A stretch of 64,000 nt of DNA from NCBI GenBank assembly GCA_028688515.1, contig JAQTXZ010000001.1, forward strand, positions 558,001 through 622,000. Direction: 5' to 3'. Source of the stretch: Patescibacteria group bacterium. Lineage in GTDB: Bacteria; Patescibacteriota; Patescibacteriia; 2-12-FULL-60-25. Shown piece after piece: positions 8,859 to 52,642 of the stretch (position 1 is its first letter; every line of letters begins with the position of its first letter). Made by a program: the position numbers and the translations under genes. The notes under the pieces were generated by a model. That model saw only the letters and a list, made by a program, of their open reading frames with translations. It was not told where the DNA came from and made no database searches.

Positions 8859-8882
8859 CGCTATTTGTCATTATCGACTTTT

Positions 8883-9052
8883 CTGTCATTGCGAGCGAAG
8901 TCCGACGGAGCGCGGCAATCTACCCCTCCTCTGTCATCTCGAGCGAAGTCCGACGGAGTCGAGAGACCTAGTTCGTGCCAATAACTGAAGCAACTATGTT
9001 AGAAGCGGTAGGATTTCTCCACTTCGCTTTTACGCTACGGTCGAAATGACAG
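8883..9052. repeat. Dispersed repeat cluster (gtcat...gaaatgacag type)
   Basis: Two similar units (8883-8922 and 8931-8969) beginning CTGTCATnnCGAGCGAAG, and a distal inverted arm GGTCGAAATGACAG at 9039-9052. The same repeat type recurs at 45345 and 47548. No gene is seen in this 260-bp gap. Confidence 0.75.
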
Positions 9053-9118
9053 AGGCTGTTTGGTTATTGTTTTTTGGTTATTGGTTATTGACTTGAGATG
9101 TGGTAAAATACCTCTCGT

Positions 9119-22537: not shown

Positions 22538-22638
22538 GCCCAGTATGATATTGCATTCAGAGGTTATTGGCAAAACAAAGAGCGCACCCGACGGCGTGGA
22601 GCAAGATGTGCTCTTTGCCGCGCGGATGCGCGAGTAGA

Positions 22639-22929
22639 TCAGCCTGGCGACTTCGGGAATACGACGTTCGCTAGCTTGACTCGCAAGCTATCGTACTGCA
22701 CATCTTCTCCCTCGAAGTTCGGCATATGCCTGTTCGTGCCTCCCTCGACCTCCGCGACTGTTTCCGGGCCGAATTCCGCAAGAACCTTCGCGGAAAATTT
22801 CGTGGGCTCACGCGTGCCGCGCTTTGGCTCTTTGGAGATGAGGACGATCGTCCCCTCCTCCCAATCCTCTTCCAACACCCGAAGGGTTGGAAGGACTCGA
22901 GTCACCAAATTCTCCCAGTAAAACTTCAT
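22639..22929 (-). CDS. Island gene: hypothetical 96-residue protein
   Basis: Starts MKFYWENLVTRVLPTLRVL after the Shine-Dalgarno AGGAG (6-nt spacing), which decides ATG 22929 over the upstream in-frame ATGs. Acidic, GC-rich codon use, no signal peptide or known domain. It is the last gene of the 25.7-22.6 kb island and follows element copy A. Function unknown. Confidence 0.6.
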   Translation of the reverse strand: MKFYWENLVTRVLPTLRVLEEDWEEGTIVLISKEPKRGTREPTKFSAKVLAEFGPETVAEVEGGTNRHMPNFEGEDVQYDSLRVKLANVVFPKSPG

Positions 22930-22944
22930 GGCCATCTCCTTATA

Positions 22945-23092
22945 AAGACACGGCTCGCCTAGCCGCAAGGTGGATCTGTTTGATCCGATCGGAAAGCATG
23001 AGGCTCATGTAACATACATGCTCCTGTTCTCTGATCGGATGCCGGAGCGTGTGACGCGTCACGGCAAGCGAGGTTGAGGTGGAAGGAACGGC
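22945..23092 (-). ncRNA. Intercistronic structured element, copy A
   Basis: Read on the minus strand. A GCCG/CGGC stem encloses GTGACGCGTCAC (23041-23065). A long arm closed by ATCCGATC/GATCGGAT (23033-23040 with 22983-22990) follows. Next is hairpin GGATC-AAACA-GATCC (22972-22986), which shares bases with the long arm, and finally CGGCT-AGGCG-AGCCG (22951-22965). It ends about 16 nt before the Shine-Dalgarno sequence of the downstream gene. See copies B and C. Confidence 0.65.
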
Positions 23093-23127
23093 CGCGCGGG
23101 GATGAGCGTCGAATAGGAGAACCTAGG

Positions 23128-24057
23128 TCAACCTATCTTAATGTCGCCGGAGCCCAAACATTGCTTGATGACCTTGGCCTTGACTCTGAAGACGTTGATG
23201 TCGCCCGAGCCCAGCACGGACAACATTGCAGTGTCAGCCACGCCGCCAAAACGGAAGTCGCCCGTGCCCATGACCTGCACATTGAGTGTAGTCACTGTGC
23301 CGGACATCACCCTGATGTCACCAGAGCCCATGATCTGCGCCTTTAGCGGGCCGTTGATCTCGGAGATGTGCACGTCGGTGTCGCCGAAAATCTCGATCGT
23401 CGCTCCTCGCATGCGCCCGCAGTTGATCTTACCGCCGCACTTGGTGCTCACGTTGAGACTTCCGTCCACGTCCCCGATCGTCGCGCTGCCGTACGTGTCA
23501 TCAAGGGTGAGCCCGGTACCACGTGGCACCTTCACCATGATGGTGGCGAGGTTATCGGCCGAGACGCTCCCGCTGACCACGGTTACGTTGCCGCTTGCGA
23601 TAGTCAAACTGCCGACGACACTACCGCTCACGGACACACTAGAACTACCGCGGCTGCCACGGATGCTGACGCTCGAGACACTTGCACTACCTCCCTCGAT
23701 GAAGAGCGTGGAGCCGTCGGCCTTGGCAATAATGGCCTCGAGTGCGCCCTTCGGGCCGGACATGGTGACATCCATACCGGACTGACAGACCTCGACAACG
23801 ATGTTGGCGGCGAGATTCGAGAACCGGAGGTCGGTGGTCGAGAACCGCATCGGCCCCTTCGTCACCCTCTCCTCCCCGGCCTCGCTACCGTCGCCCTCAC
23901 CGACCCGGATGCTGCCACGGCCTCGGTTGTCGACTGCCTTGGTGCGCACATCGCACGAGCTGCCATCGGCGAAGGTGATGCGGGAACCGTTGATACTGAT
24001 CGATCCAGGCTTGTCGGAGTAGACGTTGGTGCCGTTGACGTTTGCAACCTTCTTCAT
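23128..24057 (-). CDS. Island gene: beta-helix (DUF2807/DUF4097-like) protein
   Basis: A 309-residue Gly/Ser/Val-rich protein with parallel-beta-helix repeats such as MSGPKG, GSGDIRVMSG, MGTGDFRFGG, and LGSGDINV, as in the head-GIN/DUF4097 adhesin-like families. No signal peptide or membrane helix is seen, so export by a Sec route is not supported. A weak AAAGGG ribosome site precedes ATG 24057. It lies 12 bp after the zinc-ribbon-like gene, in the same operon. Function unknown. Confidence 0.65.
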   Translation of the reverse strand: MKKVANVNGTNVYSDKPGSISINGSRITFADGSSCDVRTKAVDNRGRGSIRVGEGDGSEAGEERVTKGPMRFSTTDLRFSNLAANIVVEVCQSGMDVTMSGPKGALEAIIAKADGSTLFIEGGSASVSSVSIRGSRGSSSVSVSGSVVGSLTIASGNVTVVSGSVSADNLATIMVKVPRGTGLTLDDTYGSATIGDVDGSLNVSTKCGGKINCGRMRGATIEIFGDTDVHISEINGPLKAQIMGSGDIRVMSGTVTTLNVQVMGTGDFRFGGVADTAMLSVLGSGDINVFRVKAKVIKQCLGSGDIKIG

Positions 24058-24069
24058 GTTTTTGCCCTT

Positions 24070-24342
24070 TCATCCGAAATAGCGCGATTCCGCGTGCTCA
24101 TCAATGACAGCGTCGAGCTCCTCGTTGCCGACCCGACAACCAAAAACGAAGGCTGGCGTGTAAAAACGATACTGCCACGTTTGGATGCGGTTGTCATCGA
24201 GGCCGTAGTCACGCCCCCGCTTCCACTCAGCCATCGCTGCCTCGTCGATCACCGGGCAGCCTTCGTTGTGCAGCCCTTTATGACCTTCGACGTGCCGCGG
24301 CGGGTGCCAGCAATACTCGCACCGTTTTTCTTGATCAGACAT
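24070..24342 (-). CDS. Island gene: small Cys/His-rich protein
   Basis: A 90-residue protein starting MSDQEKRCEYCWHPPRHV, with CxxC followed by HxxxH and GCP, spaced as for a zinc-binding fold. Start ATG 24342 is fixed by the Shine-Dalgarno GAGGAGG. Element copy B lies immediately upstream. It might be a nucleic-acid or protein-binding zinc protein; no family is recognised. Confidence 0.6.
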   Translation of the reverse strand: MSDQEKRCEYCWHPPRHVEGHKGLHNEGCPVIDEAAMAEWKRGRDYGLDDNRIQTWQYRFYTPAFVFGCRVGNEELDAVIDEHAESRYFG

Positions 24343-24359
24343 CGCGTCCTCCTCAAAAG

Positions 24360-24482
24360 AACCAACGGCACTCCCTGCCGCAAGGTGGATCTGTTTGATC
24401 CGACCTGAAAACACAAACTGCTTTATGATTTCAGGTCGGTGCCGGAGCGTAGTCGCTCACGGCGAATGAGGTTGAAAGGGAC
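24360..24482 (-). ncRNA. Intercistronic structured element, copy B
   Basis: Same order of stems as copies A and C on the minus strand: GCCG-GAGCG / CGCTC-CGGC (24441-24463), CCGACCTGAAA/TTTCAGGTCGG (24400-24410 with 24429-24439), GGATC hairpin (24387-24401), and CGGCA-GGGAG-TGCCG (24366-24380). Two stems carry compensatory changes relative to copies A and C (T-A to A-T in the last hairpin; T-A to C-G in the long arm). Confidence 0.7.
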
Positions 24483-24489
24483 GATTAAG

Positions 24490-25209
24490 CTAAAGAAGAT
24501 TCGCATCGCGGAATGCGGGTGTCGCGTCACGACGCATCACGCCAGTGACAAGCTCCGAAAATTCCTTGATGGTCAGCGGCGCACCCTTGATCTTCACATT
24601 TTCATCGGTATTCCTCAAAATCTCACGGACATTGTCAGGAGTGAGACCGAGCGAGCACAGGCCCTGGACGAGCTTGGTAGATTCGCTCTCGGAGTGAATG
24701 CACGGACTGGTATCGATATCGTGTCCTTGGCTATTGATGAACTCCAGGATCTTCGTGACATCGACACTGACAAACTTGCAGAACCCTTCCTCGAGGTTGT
24801 AGTTAAACTCGACCCTGCCTTTGAACCACTCGTGTAAACCCTCGTGCACCATCATGACTTGCGAGGGCAACTCTGTTACCGGCGCGCAATCGGAGCAGGG
24901 CAATGCATGCTTCTCATAGCTGTACAGGCAGATATAGCCGTAGTCCGCGTAAGGAGATGCTCCACTAGAACAAGCGCCATCTTGTGAGACATGAATTGTG
25001 ACCGGTGAATAGTCAGGCATCAGGTCTGAACCAGTATAGTCAACGAGTGCCCTTGCGGCCTTTCGGATGCCCTCCGATTCTTCCGTGAGCTGATCCGGGG
25101 TGCATTTCTCACAGACTATGTCGCTATCAGCCAGGCCTTTGTACTGGCCATACGCCTGACTACCGCACCCTAGCAAAACGAACATCAGAACCAAAAATAG
25201 ATTCTTCAT
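24490..25209 (-). CDS. Island gene: lipoprotein with HExxH motif (putative metallopeptidase)
   Basis: A 239-residue protein with a lipoprotein signal MKNLFLVLMFVLLGC (Cys 15 lipidated). The mature domain holds HEGLHEWF, an HExxH zincin motif, followed about 18 residues later by NLEEGFC, which could supply a third (Glu) ligand as in gluzincins. Several Cys pairs suggest disulfides. Start ATG 25209 is set by AAGGAG. Probably anchored on the outer face of the membrane. Peptidase activity is inferred only from the motif. Confidence 0.65.
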   Translation of the reverse strand: MKNLFLVLMFVLLGCGSQAYGQYKGLADSDIVCEKCTPDQLTEESEGIRKAARALVDYTGSDLMPDYSPVTIHVSQDGACSSGASPYADYGYICLYSYEKHALPCSDCAPVTELPSQVMMVHEGLHEWFKGRVEFNYNLEEGFCKFVSVDVTKILEFINSQGHDIDTSPCIHSESESTKLVQGLCSLGLTPDNVREILRNTDENVKIKGAPLTIKEFSELVTGVMRRDATPAFRDANLL

Positions 25210-25227
25210 GATCTTCTCCTTGAAATG

Positions 25228-25443
25228 AACCAACGGCTCACCCAGCCGCAAGGTGGATCTGTTTGATCCGATCGGAAAGCACGAGGGGGATGAATCATGG
25301 AACATAGAACATGAAGCACATAACATCCGACAGCTCGATGTTATGTGTTATGTGTTATGTGTTACATGCCCTTTGTCTCCCGCTCTCTGATCGGATGCCG
25401 GAGCGTGTGACGCGTCACGGCAAGCGAGGTTAGGGTGGAAGGA
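25228..25443 (-). ncRNA. Intercistronic structured element, copy C
   Basis: Identical core to copy A: GTGACGCGTCAC in the first stem, ATCCGATC/GATCGGAT (25266-25273 with 25389-25396), GGATC hairpin (25255-25269), and CGGCT-GGGTG-AGCCG (25234-25248). The long arm is expanded by a stuttered palindrome (about 25293-25370) of ttatgtg words. It begins 7 bp after the stop of the 25450-25686 gene. Confidence 0.7.
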
Positions 25444-25449
25444 GCGGTC

Positions 25450-25686
25450 TCACCGACAACGGCTATCGAGCTCGGCGATGAGCACGTAACCGCCAACGAT
25501 GACGATGTGCGCGGCGAGACTCGCGAGGACGCACATGCCGTACGTCGCGCTGCCGCCGACGGCGTTGATAACGAGCATGCCGATCAAGCTCGTCACGGAG
25601 ACGCTTATTGCCGCGATCAGGATGACCATAAGCACCGTCGTTACGACAAATGCTATGGCAAAGGCTCTCACTAAACCTTCCAACAT
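25450..25686 (-). CDS. Island gene: two-helix membrane protein
   Basis: A 78-residue protein with two hydrophobic helices rich in Val/Ile/Ala (MLEGLVRAFAIAFVVTTVLM... and GGSATYGMCVLASLAAHIVIVGGYVLI). A strong Shine-Dalgarno GGAGGAGG lies 7 nt upstream of ATG 25686. First gene of the island operon, under the promoter at 25766-25794. Function unknown. Confidence 0.6.
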   Translation of the reverse strand: MLEGLVRAFAIAFVVTTVLMVILIAAISVSVTSLIGMLVINAVGGSATYGMCVLASLAAHIVIVGGYVLIAELDSRCR

Positions 25687-25755: not shown

Positions 25756-25794
25756 TTGACGTGTCAATATAGCATAAAAATGTGGTTTTGTCAA
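25756..25794 (-). promoter_or_regulatory. Near-consensus promoter and operator candidate of the first island
   Basis: On the minus strand TTGACA (25789-25794), a 17-nt spacer ending TGC, and TATATT (25766-25771). TTGAC-GT-GTCAA (25756-25767) overlaps the -10 and start region and could be a repressor site. It drives the 25686 to 22639 operon with a leader of about 70 nt. Confidence 0.75.
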
Positions 25795-45344: not shown

Positions 45345-45465
45345 CCTGTCATCTCGAGCGGAGTTGGACGAAGTCGAGAGATCTGGCTCGCGCCTCAAAC
45401 AATAGCAACTTTCATTATTAGCTAAGGGATTTCTCCACTCCACTCCGTTGCGGTCGAAATGACAG
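45345..45465. repeat. Dispersed repeat (gtcatctcgagcg...gaaatgacag)
   Basis: Left unit begins CCTGTCATCTCGAGCGGAG, right arm ends GGTCGAAATGACAG; the ends are inverted. Same family as 8883-9052 and 47548-47666. Confidence 0.75.
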
Positions 45466-45509
45466 AAGAGAAACGTTCGCAATGAACATACAAGACAAAT
45501 GTTGTGATG

Positions 45510-47737: not shown

Positions 47738-49171
47738 CTACGGACTAGTGACCGTGACCGTAGCGTTGTCGTCGACCTCGTTCTTAACCTCAGGGTTGCC
47801 GTAGACCGGCAGCGCGACAGTGTTCTGCCGCGGCTTTGCAGGCTCGCGACCAAACTCGTAGCCGAGCAGCAGCCACGCATTCTCGTCGAAATGCGCAGCG
47901 CGCTGATTGCCCATCTCCTCCGGGCGGGGAGGCGCGGCGTTAGTCACGCCGAGCCCGAGCCTGGCGCCGATGAACCACGGGTTGGCCGGGTTGAAGGTGT
48001 ATCGGATCTCGGGAAGCAGTCCGTACCAGTTGGACGTTCCGTTCTCGAACGTCGTGGTGCGGAACGACTTGCCCGCTGCCATGAGCAGCAAATCAGTCTG
48101 CGGGCCAAGCGCGGCGTTCAAGCCGAACGCCGTGTGAACCTCGACCATGTGATGGTCGTAGAACCGGTTGGCGTAGCCGCCGCCGACACCGGCGACAAAG
48201 CCGAGATCGCGCGAGCCGAACAGTCTGCAACCGAGTTCAAGTCCCTCCGACCCCTGAAAGTAGTCGAAGTTCTTGTTCAAGTGCAGCTCGCCGTAACCCG
48301 CGAGCCAGCAAGGCAGACCCCGGCCGCGTACCTCGTACTCTCCGGGCAGAGCCTCTGGGCGGAGCCCCGTACCACGTACATCGTTCTGACTGCCGGACGG
48401 GATCTGAGCGAGGCGACCTTTGATGCCGGCGATGTCGCGCGTGTTGGTCTGCTGACCTCGCTCGAGGTCGTTGACGCGCTCGACCAGGGCGTTGTACTGC
48501 GAGATGATCTTGTCCGCACGAGTGCGGACCTCATCCATCTTGCCGTTCGCCGTGTTGACGCCGTCGCGAATCTGCGTGAGTTGTTTGATCAACTCCGTCA
48601 GATCGACATTGGTCGTCGGTGACTTGCCTTGCTCGAGCGCCGTGACTCGCCTCTCGAGATCCTCGATGCGCTTAAGCGCATCGCGGTACATCAAGCACTC
48701 CTCGATAGTGGTTCGTGCTCCGTGAGCGTCGACCGTTACCGTCTTGGAGTACAAGCCGCCTTTCAGCTCGCAGCGACGCTTGTAGCTCATCGCGGGCGGC
48801 TGGTTGTGCCGCACTTGCGGCGGAGTCGTTGTCGGCGTCGTGCCGGTCGGCGGAGACGGCGGCGTGACCTGCGTGGGAACGCAGGACTGCGGACACTGCA
48901 ATGACGGGTTGTCGATGCAGGCCGAGAACCACGCCTGGTACTCGTCGAACTGTCCGTCTGTGACGCCCTGACATTCAGGCAATGCGCTACATTTGCCCTT
49001 GAAGTCGGGCTCGCGGCTGAGGCACATGTTGTACTGTGCCCCACACGCTCTCGCGCATGCCGCCGGGTTGGCGACGACAGGTTGTGGTGTGGACGCCGTG
49101 GGCTGTGCGTTGGCTGACCCTGCGAAAAGCAGGGCCAAGCCCATGATGATGGTGAAAAGTGCTCGTTTCAT
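47738..49171 (-). CDS. Secreted protein with coiled coil and probable beta-barrel tail
   Basis: A 477-residue protein with signal peptide MKRALFTIIMGLALLFAGSANA. The N-terminal region is Cys-rich (CARACGAQYNMCLS), followed by a Pro/Thr linker, a coiled coil (residues about 160-260, RIEDLERRVTALEQGK), and an alternating-hydrophobic C-terminal half (YGELHLNKNFDYFQGSEGLE; GLLPEIRYTFNPAN) like an outer-membrane barrel. Strong Shine-Dalgarno GAGGAGG. GC-rich. Barrel fold is inferred from pattern only. Confidence 0.65.
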   Translation of the reverse strand: MKRALFTIIMGLALLFAGSANAQPTASTPQPVVANPAACARACGAQYNMCLSREPDFKGKCSALPECQGVTDGQFDEYQAWFSACIDNPSLQCPQSCVPTQVTPPSPPTGTTPTTTPPQVRHNQPPAMSYKRRCELKGGLYSKTVTVDAHGARTTIEECLMYRDALKRIEDLERRVTALEQGKSPTTNVDLTELIKQLTQIRDGVNTANGKMDEVRTRADKIISQYNALVERVNDLERGQQTNTRDIAGIKGRLAQIPSGSQNDVRGTGLRPEALPGEYEVRGRGLPCWLAGYGELHLNKNFDYFQGSEGLELGCRLFGSRDLGFVAGVGGGYANRFYDHHMVEVHTAFGLNAALGPQTDLLLMAAGKSFRTTTFENGTSNWYGLLPEIRYTFNPANPWFIGARLGLGVTNAAPPRPEEMGNQRAAHFDENAWLLLGYEFGREPAKPRQNTVALPVYGNPEVKNEVDDNATVTVTSP

Positions 49172-49227
49172 CCCATTCCTCCTCGTAGTGGAGCTTTAAG
49201 CTCCGTTTTTCCGATGGGTATGACTTG

Positions 49228-49257
49228 TATTTACGCAAAATTAAGCGAATTTGTCAA
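49228..49257 (-). promoter_or_regulatory. Promoter of secreted coiled-coil protein
   Basis: On the minus strand TTGACA (49252-49257), 18-nt spacer, TAAATA (49228-49233). Confidence 0.6.
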
Positions 49258-49439
49258 GACCCCCTCATCCCAAACCGGAGCCCTCTATCCCCCATCCCCT
49301 TTCTCCCACAGATGCAGGAGAAAGGGGCGAAATTAAGAACCCCTCTCCTGCAAGCGTGGGAGAGGGGCAGGGCGTAAAGCCCCGTGGGGGCCACGCCCCT
49401 CTACGGGGGTGAGGGCGTAGCGGTGGTTGGGACAAATTT

Positions 49440-49478
49440 AAAAGCACCAGCAGATTGAGCGTCCTGTCTGGTGCTTTT
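49440..49478. terminator. Bidirectional terminator
   Basis: AAAAGCACCAG / CTGGTGCTTTT stem with a 17-nt loop, in the transcript downstream of the 49574-51019 gene. Confidence 0.7.
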
Positions 49479-49573
49479 CGGTTGGGTGTAGCCCTTCCGA
49501 TAGTTGAGAGTTTTTTCGTCAGTCTCTGCTCACGTGTGTGAGACTGACGGGTGAAAAGAGCGAGGGATTCGAA

Positions 49574-51019
49574 TCAGAGCGAGCCGACCACCTGCCCGTT
49601 CTTGTACGGGTACAGGCACTGCCCGACGCAGTTGGGGTCCGGGTTGCACCCCGAGCAGTTCAGATCCGGCGCGCCGTTCGAGATGAGCACATACTGCTGC
49701 TCGTTCGACGCATTCTCCGAACCCTCGTAGATGTACATCGTTCCCAGCGTGTGCCCGCATCCGCTTCCGGTGGCACAACTCGTGTCGCCCCAGTACTTCC
49801 CGTTCGGGAGAGCATTCTGGAACTCGAAGAGCGTGCTGCCGTGGCGGACCTGGAACGTGCACGAATACTTGCCGGACGCGACCTGGGTCATGTCGCAAAT
49901 CTTTGCCCAGCTGCGCGGAGGCTCACACGGAGGCTGCCACCAGCCGTCGAGCCGGTGGTTGCCCGTCGCCGGTGAATTCACGATAACCGCGACGATGGTG
50001 TCGTACTCGGTGGGGCCGTTGCATTCGCTTCCACCCGAGCCACCCGTTCCACCGCTGCCACCCGCGCCGCACGTGTTCCAGACCGCGCCGTTGTTGTCGT
50101 CGCAGTCGTCGTTGCTTGCGACGTAACCCGCGGGGGGCGTGGTCGACGTGGACTGGAGCGGCTGGCTCGCATTGCCGTGTCCGTCCCCGTCCGCATCGCG
50201 GTAGTAGGTGTAGGTCACCGTGCCGCAACCCTGATCGATCTGCCCATCGCAGTCGTCATCGATGCCGTTGCCGCAGGTCTCGGACTTTCCGGGGTTGATG
50301 TTCGGGTTACTGTCGTTGCAGTCGCCCGAGTTGTTGACGTAACCCGCGGGAGGCGAGGGGTACTGCGCGCACTGCGCGGGATCACCATACGTGTCACCGT
50401 CCGCATCGCGACAGTACGTGCCAGACACGGTCTTGCACTGGCACTCACCGAAGCCGGCGCCAGTATCCCAGCACCACTTGGTGCCGTCGTGGCTCGGACA
50501 CTCCTCGTTGCACGAGTATGACTGGAGCGGCGTGCACACCTGGCCGCTTCCGCCCGTGCCGCCGGTTCCGCAGCCCTCGTCGATCTGCCCGTTGCAGTTG
50601 TCGTCGAGGCCGTTGCTGCAGATCTCGGTCATGCCCGGGTTCACGTCGTGGCGGTTGTCGTCACAGTCGTTACCATTACCGACGAACCCGGACGGCTGCG
50701 TTGTCTGGTTGTACAGGCAATCCGCAGCGTTGCCGTAGCCGTCGGCGTCGGCGTCTCGACAGAAGGTGCCGGTCGGAAGCGGGCACTGGCACGTGCCATA
50801 CCCACTGCCGTCCTCGTAGCACCACTGCGAACCAGTGAGGCCGCCCGGACAAGCACAGTCGTGAACCGCATGCGGCTCACAGGCCGTTCCGCCCGTCCCG
50901 CCGCTGCCGCCTTCGCCTGCCGTGCCGCCAGTGCCCTCGGGATTCCACCTTGCGGTGTCCATCGAGCATCCGCCGACCACTGCCGCGAGAATCGAAACCA
51001 ACCAAACGAGCTTCTTCAT
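49574..51019 (-). CDS. MopE-like metal-binding-repeat lipoprotein
   Basis: A 481-residue protein. Lipoprotein signal MKKLVWLVSILAAVVGGC is followed by Gly/Thr-rich linkers (GTGGTAGEGGSGGTGGT) and repeated putative metal-binding motifs: CRDADADGYG...DCDDNRHDVNPG...CSNGLDDNCNGQIDEGC, seen about three times. The C-terminal 130 residues are a Trp/Cys-rich beta domain resembling starch-binding-type folds (STLFEFQNALPNGKYWGD). ATG 51019 is set by GGAGGA. The style is common in Myxococcota, suggesting transfer. Confidence 0.8.
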   Translation of the reverse strand: MKKLVWLVSILAAVVGGCSMDTARWNPEGTGGTAGEGGSGGTGGTACEPHAVHDCACPGGLTGSQWCYEDGSGYGTCQCPLPTGTFCRDADADGYGNAADCLYNQTTQPSGFVGNGNDCDDNRHDVNPGMTEICSNGLDDNCNGQIDEGCGTGGTGGSGQVCTPLQSYSCNEECPSHDGTKWCWDTGAGFGECQCKTVSGTYCRDADGDTYGDPAQCAQYPSPPAGYVNNSGDCNDSNPNINPGKSETCGNGIDDDCDGQIDQGCGTVTYTYYRDADGDGHGNASQPLQSTSTTPPAGYVASNDDCDDNNGAVWNTCGAGGSGGTGGSGGSECNGPTEYDTIVAVIVNSPATGNHRLDGWWQPPCEPPRSWAKICDMTQVASGKYSCTFQVRHGSTLFEFQNALPNGKYWGDTSCATGSGCGHTLGTMYIYEGSENASNEQQYVLISNGAPDLNCSGCNPDPNCVGQCLYPYKNGQVVGSL

Positions 51020-51352
51020 GATCGTCCTCCGAAGTCTTCGCGGCGCTGTGAGCGACCGCGGTTCATTGCGAGCGTTTGACTCAACGACAACATGTCGTTT
51101 TGTCTTCCCCTCCTTGTCCAAGATGCCGTGAACTCTAAAGGTCCGGATCTCAAACAATAATAGTAGTGCATCCTCTTTATCCATCACTGCATCCAAGATA
51201 AGGAGGGGAAATTTTTTATTGCAAATTGTCAATCAACATCTGCACAAACTAGTTATGCAGCGACATGAATCATCAAGTTATCAATGACTCGTGTCGGGAG
51301 AGGCAGAAAAGGAGTGGTTACCTTTTGCTGCCTCAAGCCGAGGGAGACTGGT
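51020..51352. other. 333-bp intergenic leader region
   Basis: No gene is supported. It contains a possible TTGCAA-18-TATCTT promoter (51195-51224, minus) and a leader of about 170 nt with hairpins CGACA-ACA-TGTCG (51085-51097) and GAG-CGTTTGA-CTC (51070-51082). Confidence 0.45.
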
Positions 51353-52579
51353 TCAGAGAATGTCTGCCGCCCAGTCGATGGTGATGCCGCCTCCGAAGAG
51401 TGCGGACTGTTGGTTGGTGTGCGCAAGGCCGTCATCGCTAAAGTAGATGACCTTGTGGGTTCCGGTGACCATGCCCTTCACACCGATGCCCAGGTACGTC
51501 CCCGGGATCGAGTAGTGTAGGCCGAGCGTTCCACCGAACATGGTCCCCAAGAAATTGGGGTCGCTCGCGCGGAACACCTGGTCGATCTTGAACCCCAAGG
51601 CTCCGGTCAGCGCCTTGTCGTCGCTGAGAGCAAGCATGAAGCCGCCCTCTGCGCCGCCGTGGTACGCCGATCCCTGCCCGCCGGTCGACGGATCAATTCC
51701 GTCGCGGTACATCAGACCAACGAAGCCTTCGGCGTAGTACCCAGCCTTGGACGCCGGGAAGAACGAGTGGAAACCGACCTTGAGGCCGGGAGCCACCGCG
51801 ACTCCCGCGTCGCCCATGCCGAGCACCCACAGCTCCGCGCCCAGAACGAACTGAGGCTTGCTGTCGCGCAGGTCGGCGACGTCCTGCCTGAGATCGCTGT
51901 AGAGCTTGTCGAGTGAACGGATGATCACTGTTACGTTCTCGAGCTTGGCGTCAGCATTCGCCGCCATCTGCTTAGCCTTGTTAAGCTCGCTCCAGATGAT
52001 CGCAATCTGCCCGGTCTGCCAAGCGTCCAGGTTGCTCTGTTGCTCGAGATACGCCCTGAACTCCAACTCGAACTCGTCGAGCCGAGTATGCGCCTTCTCA
52101 AGACTATCGAGCGTCACCTCGACGAAGTGCTCGTTTGCTGAGCACTCGGACACCACGATCTGATGCATGATGCCTCTGACGGTGACGTACTTCGGTTGCC
52201 GCTTGAGCACAGGCGTAGTGTTGACCTTGTCATGACAACAATCCTGCGGATCGTCGACGTCGCGGCCATCCACACACTGATATTGCGGCGGGCTCCATTC
52301 GGGTTTCTTGGCCGGCGGAGGTGCGACGGTCGGCTGAGCGAGAGCGCAAGGCGCTCCGCCGCAGTTGACCGTCACGTTCACGTTGCAAGCAGCGCGACAC
52401 GCAAGCGGGACATCCCCGACTCTGCATGCCTCCTGCGTCGCAGCCGACGCGCCGTAGAACACGGCGCACTGTCCCGAAGCTGCCGGCGGCGGGTTTTGAG
52501 CCCACGCCGGGTTGAGGTTGATGACCAAAGCGCACGCAAACGCGAGCGCTGCCCACAAGACGACACTCATCTTCTTCAT
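51353..52579 (-). CDS. Secreted protein with coiled coil and probable beta-barrel tail
   Basis: A 408-residue protein with signal peptide MKKMSVVLWAALAFACALV...AWA. A Cys-rich N-domain (CRVGDVPLACRAACNVNVTV) is followed by a coiled coil (residues about 155-245, SLEKAHTRLDEFELEFRAYL) and a C-terminal half with alternating strands (VLGAELWVLGMGDAGVAVAP). Same three-part plan as the 47738-49171 protein but little sequence identity. ATG 52579 follows GGGAGGAG; the longer frame to 52945 is not coding. Confidence 0.65.
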   Translation of the reverse strand: MKKMSVVLWAALAFACALVINLNPAWAQNPPPAASGQCAVFYGASAATQEACRVGDVPLACRAACNVNVTVNCGGAPCALAQPTVAPPPAKKPEWSPPQYQCVDGRDVDDPQDCCHDKVNTTPVLKRQPKYVTVRGIMHQIVVSECSANEHFVEVTLDSLEKAHTRLDEFELEFRAYLEQQSNLDAWQTGQIAIIWSELNKAKQMAANADAKLENVTVIIRSLDKLYSDLRQDVADLRDSKPQFVLGAELWVLGMGDAGVAVAPGLKVGFHSFFPASKAGYYAEGFVGLMYRDGIDPSTGGQGSAYHGGAEGGFMLALSDDKALTGALGFKIDQVFRASDPNFLGTMFGGTLGLHYSIPGTYLGIGVKGMVTGTHKVIYFSDDGLAHTNQQSALFGGGITIDWAADIL

Positions 52580-52592
52580 CTCGAGCTCCTCC

Positions 52593-52642
52593 CTGCCCTC
52601 GCGGGGCAGACTGTTGATCTGCCCGCTCCTGACAAGAGCAGG
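52593..52642 (-). promoter_or_regulatory. Leader with mutually exclusive hairpins
   Basis: In the minus-strand RNA, GGGCAGA (52618-52624) can pair with TCTGCCC (52604-52610). That strand can instead pair with GGGCAG (52593-52598), 6-7 nt before the Shine-Dalgarno sequence. A third stem, CCTGCTC/GAGCGGG (52622-52642), shares bases with the first. Competing pairings near a ribosome-binding site suggest attenuation or translational control. Confidence 0.5.

Follow-up and report, generated by a model that had tools for sequence, protein, structure and literature searches.

The DNA that we analysed is a stretch of 64,000 nucleotides from a Patescibacteria group bacterium, referred to as the window. 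It contains a small probable operon of five same-strand ORFs, read leftwards and bracketed by a predicted promoter and a predicted terminator (Table 1). The GC content of the operon stretch (0.52–0.57) is higher than that of the surrounding DNA (about 0.46), and the same type of promoter stands at another GC-rich gene of this genome (contig C4, ~686.9 kb). In three gaps of the operon we find a cluster of four hairpins, H1 to H4, that spans roughly 115–210 bases.

Table 1. Position of the operon features in the window (SD: Shine–Dalgarno sequence)
Feature	Position	Strand	Description
Promoter, sigma-70-type	25766-25794	minus	TTGACA-17-TATATT; 11/12 match, TG before second hexamer
ORF5	25450-25686	minus	78 aa, resembles a small membrane protein, no family
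Copy c3	25228-25443	minus	H1 25397-25422, H2 25268-25394, H3 25255-25269, H4 25233-25249, SD 25215-25219
Insertion in c3 H2 loop	25296-25378		dispersed palindromic repeat family AACATGGAACACATAACAT..., several other genome sites
ORF4	24490-25209	minus	239 aa, signal peptide and HEGLHE motif, putative zinc peptidase
Copy c2 (divergent)	24360-24482	minus	H1 24441-24464, H2 24400-24439, H3 24387-24401, H4 24365-24381, SD 24348-24352
ORF3	24070-24342	minus	90 aa, small Cys/His protein
ORF2	23128-24057	minus	309 aa, DUF2807 (head GIN domain)
Copy c1	22945-23092	minus	H1 23041-23066, H2 22985-23038, H3 22972-22986, H4 22950-22966, SD 22935-22939
ORF1	22639-22929	minus	96 aa, no family
Terminator hairpin	22572-22617	minus	CAAAGAGC...GCTCTTTG-TTTT; G004 has a homologue with compensating changes

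The same locus of a congener (G004) carries methyltransferase, tRNA-Pro and YibE flanks in equivalent places. It has a homologous terminator and the same type of promoter, together with a single, different ORF of 95 aa and no copy of the hairpin element. Since the frame is shared and the gene is different, the locus looks like a shared expression site of which the contents have been exchanged. Relatives of ORF4 (in G018) and of ORF3 (in G101 and G003) are stand-alone genes without the element, and therefore the element did not travel with these genes.

A second GC-rich island (0.60–0.63) lies at 47738-52600 of the window. It contains genes for secreted or lipoprotein-like proteins with promoters of the type found at the operon, and one of these genes is GGTGG-rich and has repeated, metal-binding-like modules.

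Anatomy of the Element

A preliminary description of this DNA had treated the three spacers as minus-strand copies of one element with a shared order of stems. Our analysis confirms this, and the copies lie where they had been placed. All three contain the same exact 25-mer, GGATCAAACAGATCCACCTTGCGGC, on the minus strand (at 22962, 24377 and 25245), for which shuffled sequences give an expectation of 0. They also share the same hairpin types: H1 is closed by GCCG...CGGC, H2 is long with a variable loop, H3 reads GGATC-AAACA-GATCC and H4 has the form GCGGCN-5-NGCCGU. Copies c1 and c3 are near-identical, with 48/48 identical stem positions and 66/86 identical unpaired positions, while c2 is divergent and represents an independent lineage, which leaves two sequence lineages in total. 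Copy c3 is longer by 90 nt because a genome-wide palindromic repeat is lodged in its H2 loop; the tip of H2 thus tolerates insertions.

The location just 5′ of a strong Shine–Dalgarno sequence, also part of the preliminary description, is borne out as a fixed position inside a likely transcription unit. The distance from the end of H4 to the GGAG of the Shine–Dalgarno sequence measures 11, 13 and 14 nt in the three copies. This downstream spacing is near-constant, whereas the distance from the preceding stop codon to H1 varies from 26 to 62 nt. A hairpin close to the Shine–Dalgarno sequence was also considered, and rejected, as a general trait of GC-rich genes: stems of ≥5 pairs occur in this position in 38% of such genes versus 23% after shuffling, a mild enrichment, and in 25% versus 19% for ordinary genes.

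Maintenance of Pairing

In the stem columns that can be aligned, every cell is paired (72 of 72). One pair in H2 and one in H4 have changed on both sides. These are the compensatory changes to which the preliminary description had drawn attention, CCGATC/GATCGG versus CCGACC/GGTCGG in H2 and CGGCT/AGCCG versus CGGCA/TGCCG in H4, and both are correct. Deeper in H2, c2 differs from c3 by 13 substitutions and still retains 17 of 18 pairs, where 9.3 would be expected. The probability of this compensation is 3e-5 against random substitution, and 0.015 under a null that leaves the substituted positions in place and randomises their bases only. Column shuffles of the three-row alignment equal the observed covariation in 75 of 500 cases, which is not significant alone; covariation is thin because there are only two sequence lineages. 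The paired cells and the compensation in H2 nevertheless indicate that pairing has been maintained, either through selection or through palindrome-correcting mutation. Mutational template switching can keep long palindromes perfect without selection.

RNA folding gives z-scores of −1.75 for c1, −6.3 for c2 and −4.7 for c3. The fold of c1 alone is unremarkable, being no better than those of 10 out of 200 shuffles. Folded as DNA, either strand does similarly well.

Distribution of the Element

The element had been proposed as a candidate class of regulatory RNA, with the prediction that a covariance model would find many matches before unrelated genes. When this prediction was examined, the copies c1 to c3 came back and nothing else. 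No further copy with up to 3 mismatches occurs in the 1.29 Mb genome of this organism, and a covariance search with lenient settings across the window and ~0.72 Mb of the genome did not add any. The element is also absent from 193 relatives (blast and covariance model), from 380 genomes across the phylum (covariance model) and from the plasmids and phages that we searched. Scans of GTDB species genomes and viral contigs for exact matches to the 25-mer and for a degenerate pattern of H3-H4 did not yield a real copy, although copies that have diverged in distant taxa would escape such exact patterns. The suspicion that the motif corresponds to no described family holds: Rfam covariance models gave no match that reached the gathering score, and the only one with E ≤ 5 was a chance match to a miRNA model. 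We found nothing relevant in the literature on integrons or structured RNA in Patescibacteria.

Several apparent relatives could be dismissed. A blast match in G166 falls inside a 16S rRNA gene. For the 14 GTDB and 2 viral matches to the degenerate pattern, similarity ends with the pattern itself, and one pattern match from Doudnabacteria (L056) is located within an intron-like ORF that interrupts a 16S rRNA gene. Weak covariance-model matches of 12–16 bits elsewhere in the genome under study are devoid of the conserved core. As a separate observation, the 16S rRNA region on this Doudnabacteria contig (MFEY01000001.1) contains several inserted ORFs that resemble intron homing endonucleases.

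In summary of these searches, the element is real and its pairing is maintained, yet it is confined to one operon, and the interpretation as a class of regulatory RNA is not supported. The element looks like local operon punctuation rather than a new class of riboswitch.

Possible Functions

The interpretation that we favour, and to which we assign about an even chance, is that c1 to c3 are a locally duplicated intercistronic spacer that serves as cis-acting mRNA punctuation in a patchwork operon of acquired GC-rich genes. We infer that transcription runs through the elements, that they affect decay or translation, and that they were duplicated in place. According to this model, transcription would proceed leftwards from the single promoter to the single terminator, and each spacer would appear in the mRNA as four consecutive hairpins between a stop codon and the Shine–Dalgarno sequence of the next gene. 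The hairpins could block the run-through of exonucleases, such that segments of the mRNA are protected or separated. They may also keep the sequence ahead of the ribosome-binding site in a fixed fold, with H4 always 11–14 nt from GGAG, and as a consequence each of the unrelated genes would experience similar, insulated initiation. In favour of this proposal we count the promoter and terminator on either side of the ORFs, the maintained pairing, the near-constant spacing to the Shine–Dalgarno sequence, the identity of the stems of c1 and c3 next to their more variable unpaired positions, the restriction of the element to the operon, the stand-alone relatives of ORF3 and ORF4, and the shared frame in G004. 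Neighbouring genes elsewhere in the genome that share a repeated spacer, promoter-leader or terminator (see below) also speak for it. The thin covariation, the unremarkable fold of c1, the ability of template switching to preserve palindromes and the similar folds of either strand as DNA speak against it.

Stable stem-loops between the genes of one operon have precedents. In E. coli, intercistronic hairpins of malE-malF and papBA protect operon segments, and these stem-loops as well as that of puf determine how fast the flanking segments decay and how abundant they are (PMC5927463). In contrast to these cases, the element described here consists of four tandem hairpins, occupies three gaps of the same operon and keeps a fixed distance to the Shine–Dalgarno sequence; it is not dispersed in the genome. 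If the punctuation model is true, this organism, with its very small genome, wires newly acquired foreign genes into an operon by reusing one structured spacer.

Another explanation for maintained pairing is that the element is a neutral palindromic repeat, REP- or MITE-like, which spread within the operon and in which pairing is kept by mutation instead of selection. Dispersed intergenic palindromes are indeed abundant in this genome, one of them has inserted into c3, and only a single locus is involved. However, this element differs from the dispersed families in having no copies beyond the operon. Its position relative to the Shine–Dalgarno sequence is constant in three copies, and H4 has kept its stem through a double change although its 5-nt loop varies freely. 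We consider neutral spread unlikely in view of these features. A leader that switches between two structures, as in an attenuator or riboswitch, is an alternative that we judge very unlikely. Here, H4 would act as a weak terminator or as a stem close to the Shine–Dalgarno sequence, and an alternative long stem would prevent its formation. The resemblance is to a multi-hairpin leader just 5′ of a Shine–Dalgarno sequence with a terminator-like last hairpin, and H4 with its U-rich tail does score as a weak terminator in c1 to c3. A long stem can also be drawn: CAAC-CTCGC-GCCGTGA pairs with TTGCGGC-GCGAG-GTTG, joins both ends of the element and takes one arm each of H1 and H4. Energetically, this long stem almost equals the local hairpins in c1 and comes to within about 3 kcal/mol of them in c3, but in the ensemble of c2 it has zero weight. 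When the hairpin arms are retained and the remainder is shuffled, the long stem does not exceed what chance would produce alongside these hairpins (P = 0.03, 0.24 and 0.11). The arms pair no better with their own partner than with a swapped one, and the left arm of c2 even prefers the right arm of c3 over its own. We therefore set the long stem aside, as a riboswitch or antiterminator structure, as a probable product of chance. Behind H4 the T-run is poor, and a GG interrupts it in two copies. The preliminary description had also suggested that competition between H2 and H3 forms an RNA switch; the two hairpins do overlap, but by 2 bases only (GG), and the minimum-energy fold of c2 accommodates both. 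Unlike attenuators and riboswitches, the element has no supported alternative pairing, Rfam match or relatives that could show a conserved ligand core, and it sits between the genes of an operon rather than at its head. Since no class was found, the element does not carry the importance of a riboswitch class.

The element could also function as DNA, namely as a cassette junction at which an attC-like or other folded single-strand recombination site adds unrelated genes to an array. We regard this possibility as decidedly unlikely, even though the operon shares with integron cassettes the arrangement of unrelated genes with structured repeats of variable middle part between them. The unrelated genes are separated by structured repeats that are near-identical except for a variable terminal part, two of these genes have relatives that stand alone elsewhere, the same locus is variable in G004, and elsewhere in this genome a second array uses a 60-nt junction repeat of its own (C4 785329-785387 and 786082-786141). 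On the other hand, the attC boxes RYYYAAC...GTTRRRY are absent. The 5′ boxes on the minus strand (CCTCAAC, TTTCAAC and CCCTAAC) have C or T where a purine (R) is needed in all copies, the 3′ boxes (GTGTCTT in c1, GTTGGTT in c2 and c3) do not match GTTRRRY, and a full pair of boxes is absent from the plus strand as well. An outer stem between the two ends of the element pairs no better than chance once the local hairpins are taken into account. The genome, which is 99% complete, has no match over cut-off to the integron integrase model (TIGR02249); arrays without integrase are known, and so the absence of this enzyme alone is not decisive. A random junction would not be expected to keep a fixed distance to the start of the gene downstream. 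With boxes, end-pairing and integrase all lacking, we could reject the identification as an integron attC site, from which the element differs in each of these respects. In integrons, attC hairpins in the mRNA hinder the movement of ribosomes to the next cassette (PMC8876359). A broader version of the same idea, which we consider very doubtful, is that this genome builds small arrays of unrelated accessory genes with structured junction repeats particular to each array, in an integron-like manner without attC or integron integrase, and that the junction also provides the following gene with its ribosome-binding module. The arrays covered by this proposal are c1 to c3, the one at C4 785.3–786.1 kb and the repeated terminator-promoter-leader at C4 267.8/269.8 kb. 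Should the cassette interpretation be true, it would imply a mechanism of gene stacking unlike that of integrons.

Other Repeated Modules in the Genome

We surveyed 784 kb of the same genome for repeated intergenic pieces at neighbouring genes. The 60-nt structured junction repeat on contig C4 belongs to a second small GC-rich array; its second copy is followed by a sequence similar to a Shine–Dalgarno sequence and then, instead of a gene, by an AT-rich palindrome. At C4 267754-267882 and 269762-269890, a 130-bp module of terminator, promoter, leader and first codons is repeated with 85% identity in front of genes that otherwise differ. Near-identical terminators follow adjacent genes at C4 782305/783109 and 811554/812279, and such terminators also form one intergenic pair at 484487/484813. 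A repeat at C4 852.6/853.8 kb was rejected as the ends of paralogous genes. This genome thus seems to copy intergenic modules locally as a matter of habit, which makes the element in c1 to c3 less singular and leaves a low probability for a cassette-like stacking process.

Two further kinds of repeats were observed. A dispersed family of intergenic repeats of 120–175 bp, represented in the window at 8882-9053 and 45346-45485, occurs in ten or so places in 464 kb. An island of 18.6 kb with a GC content of 0.60 (G000:C4:792201-810800; L084, L085) is composed of units bounded by repeats of 440–670 bp that are up to 99% identical. It contains several matches to tyrosine recombinases and looks like a set of tandem or nested integrative elements.
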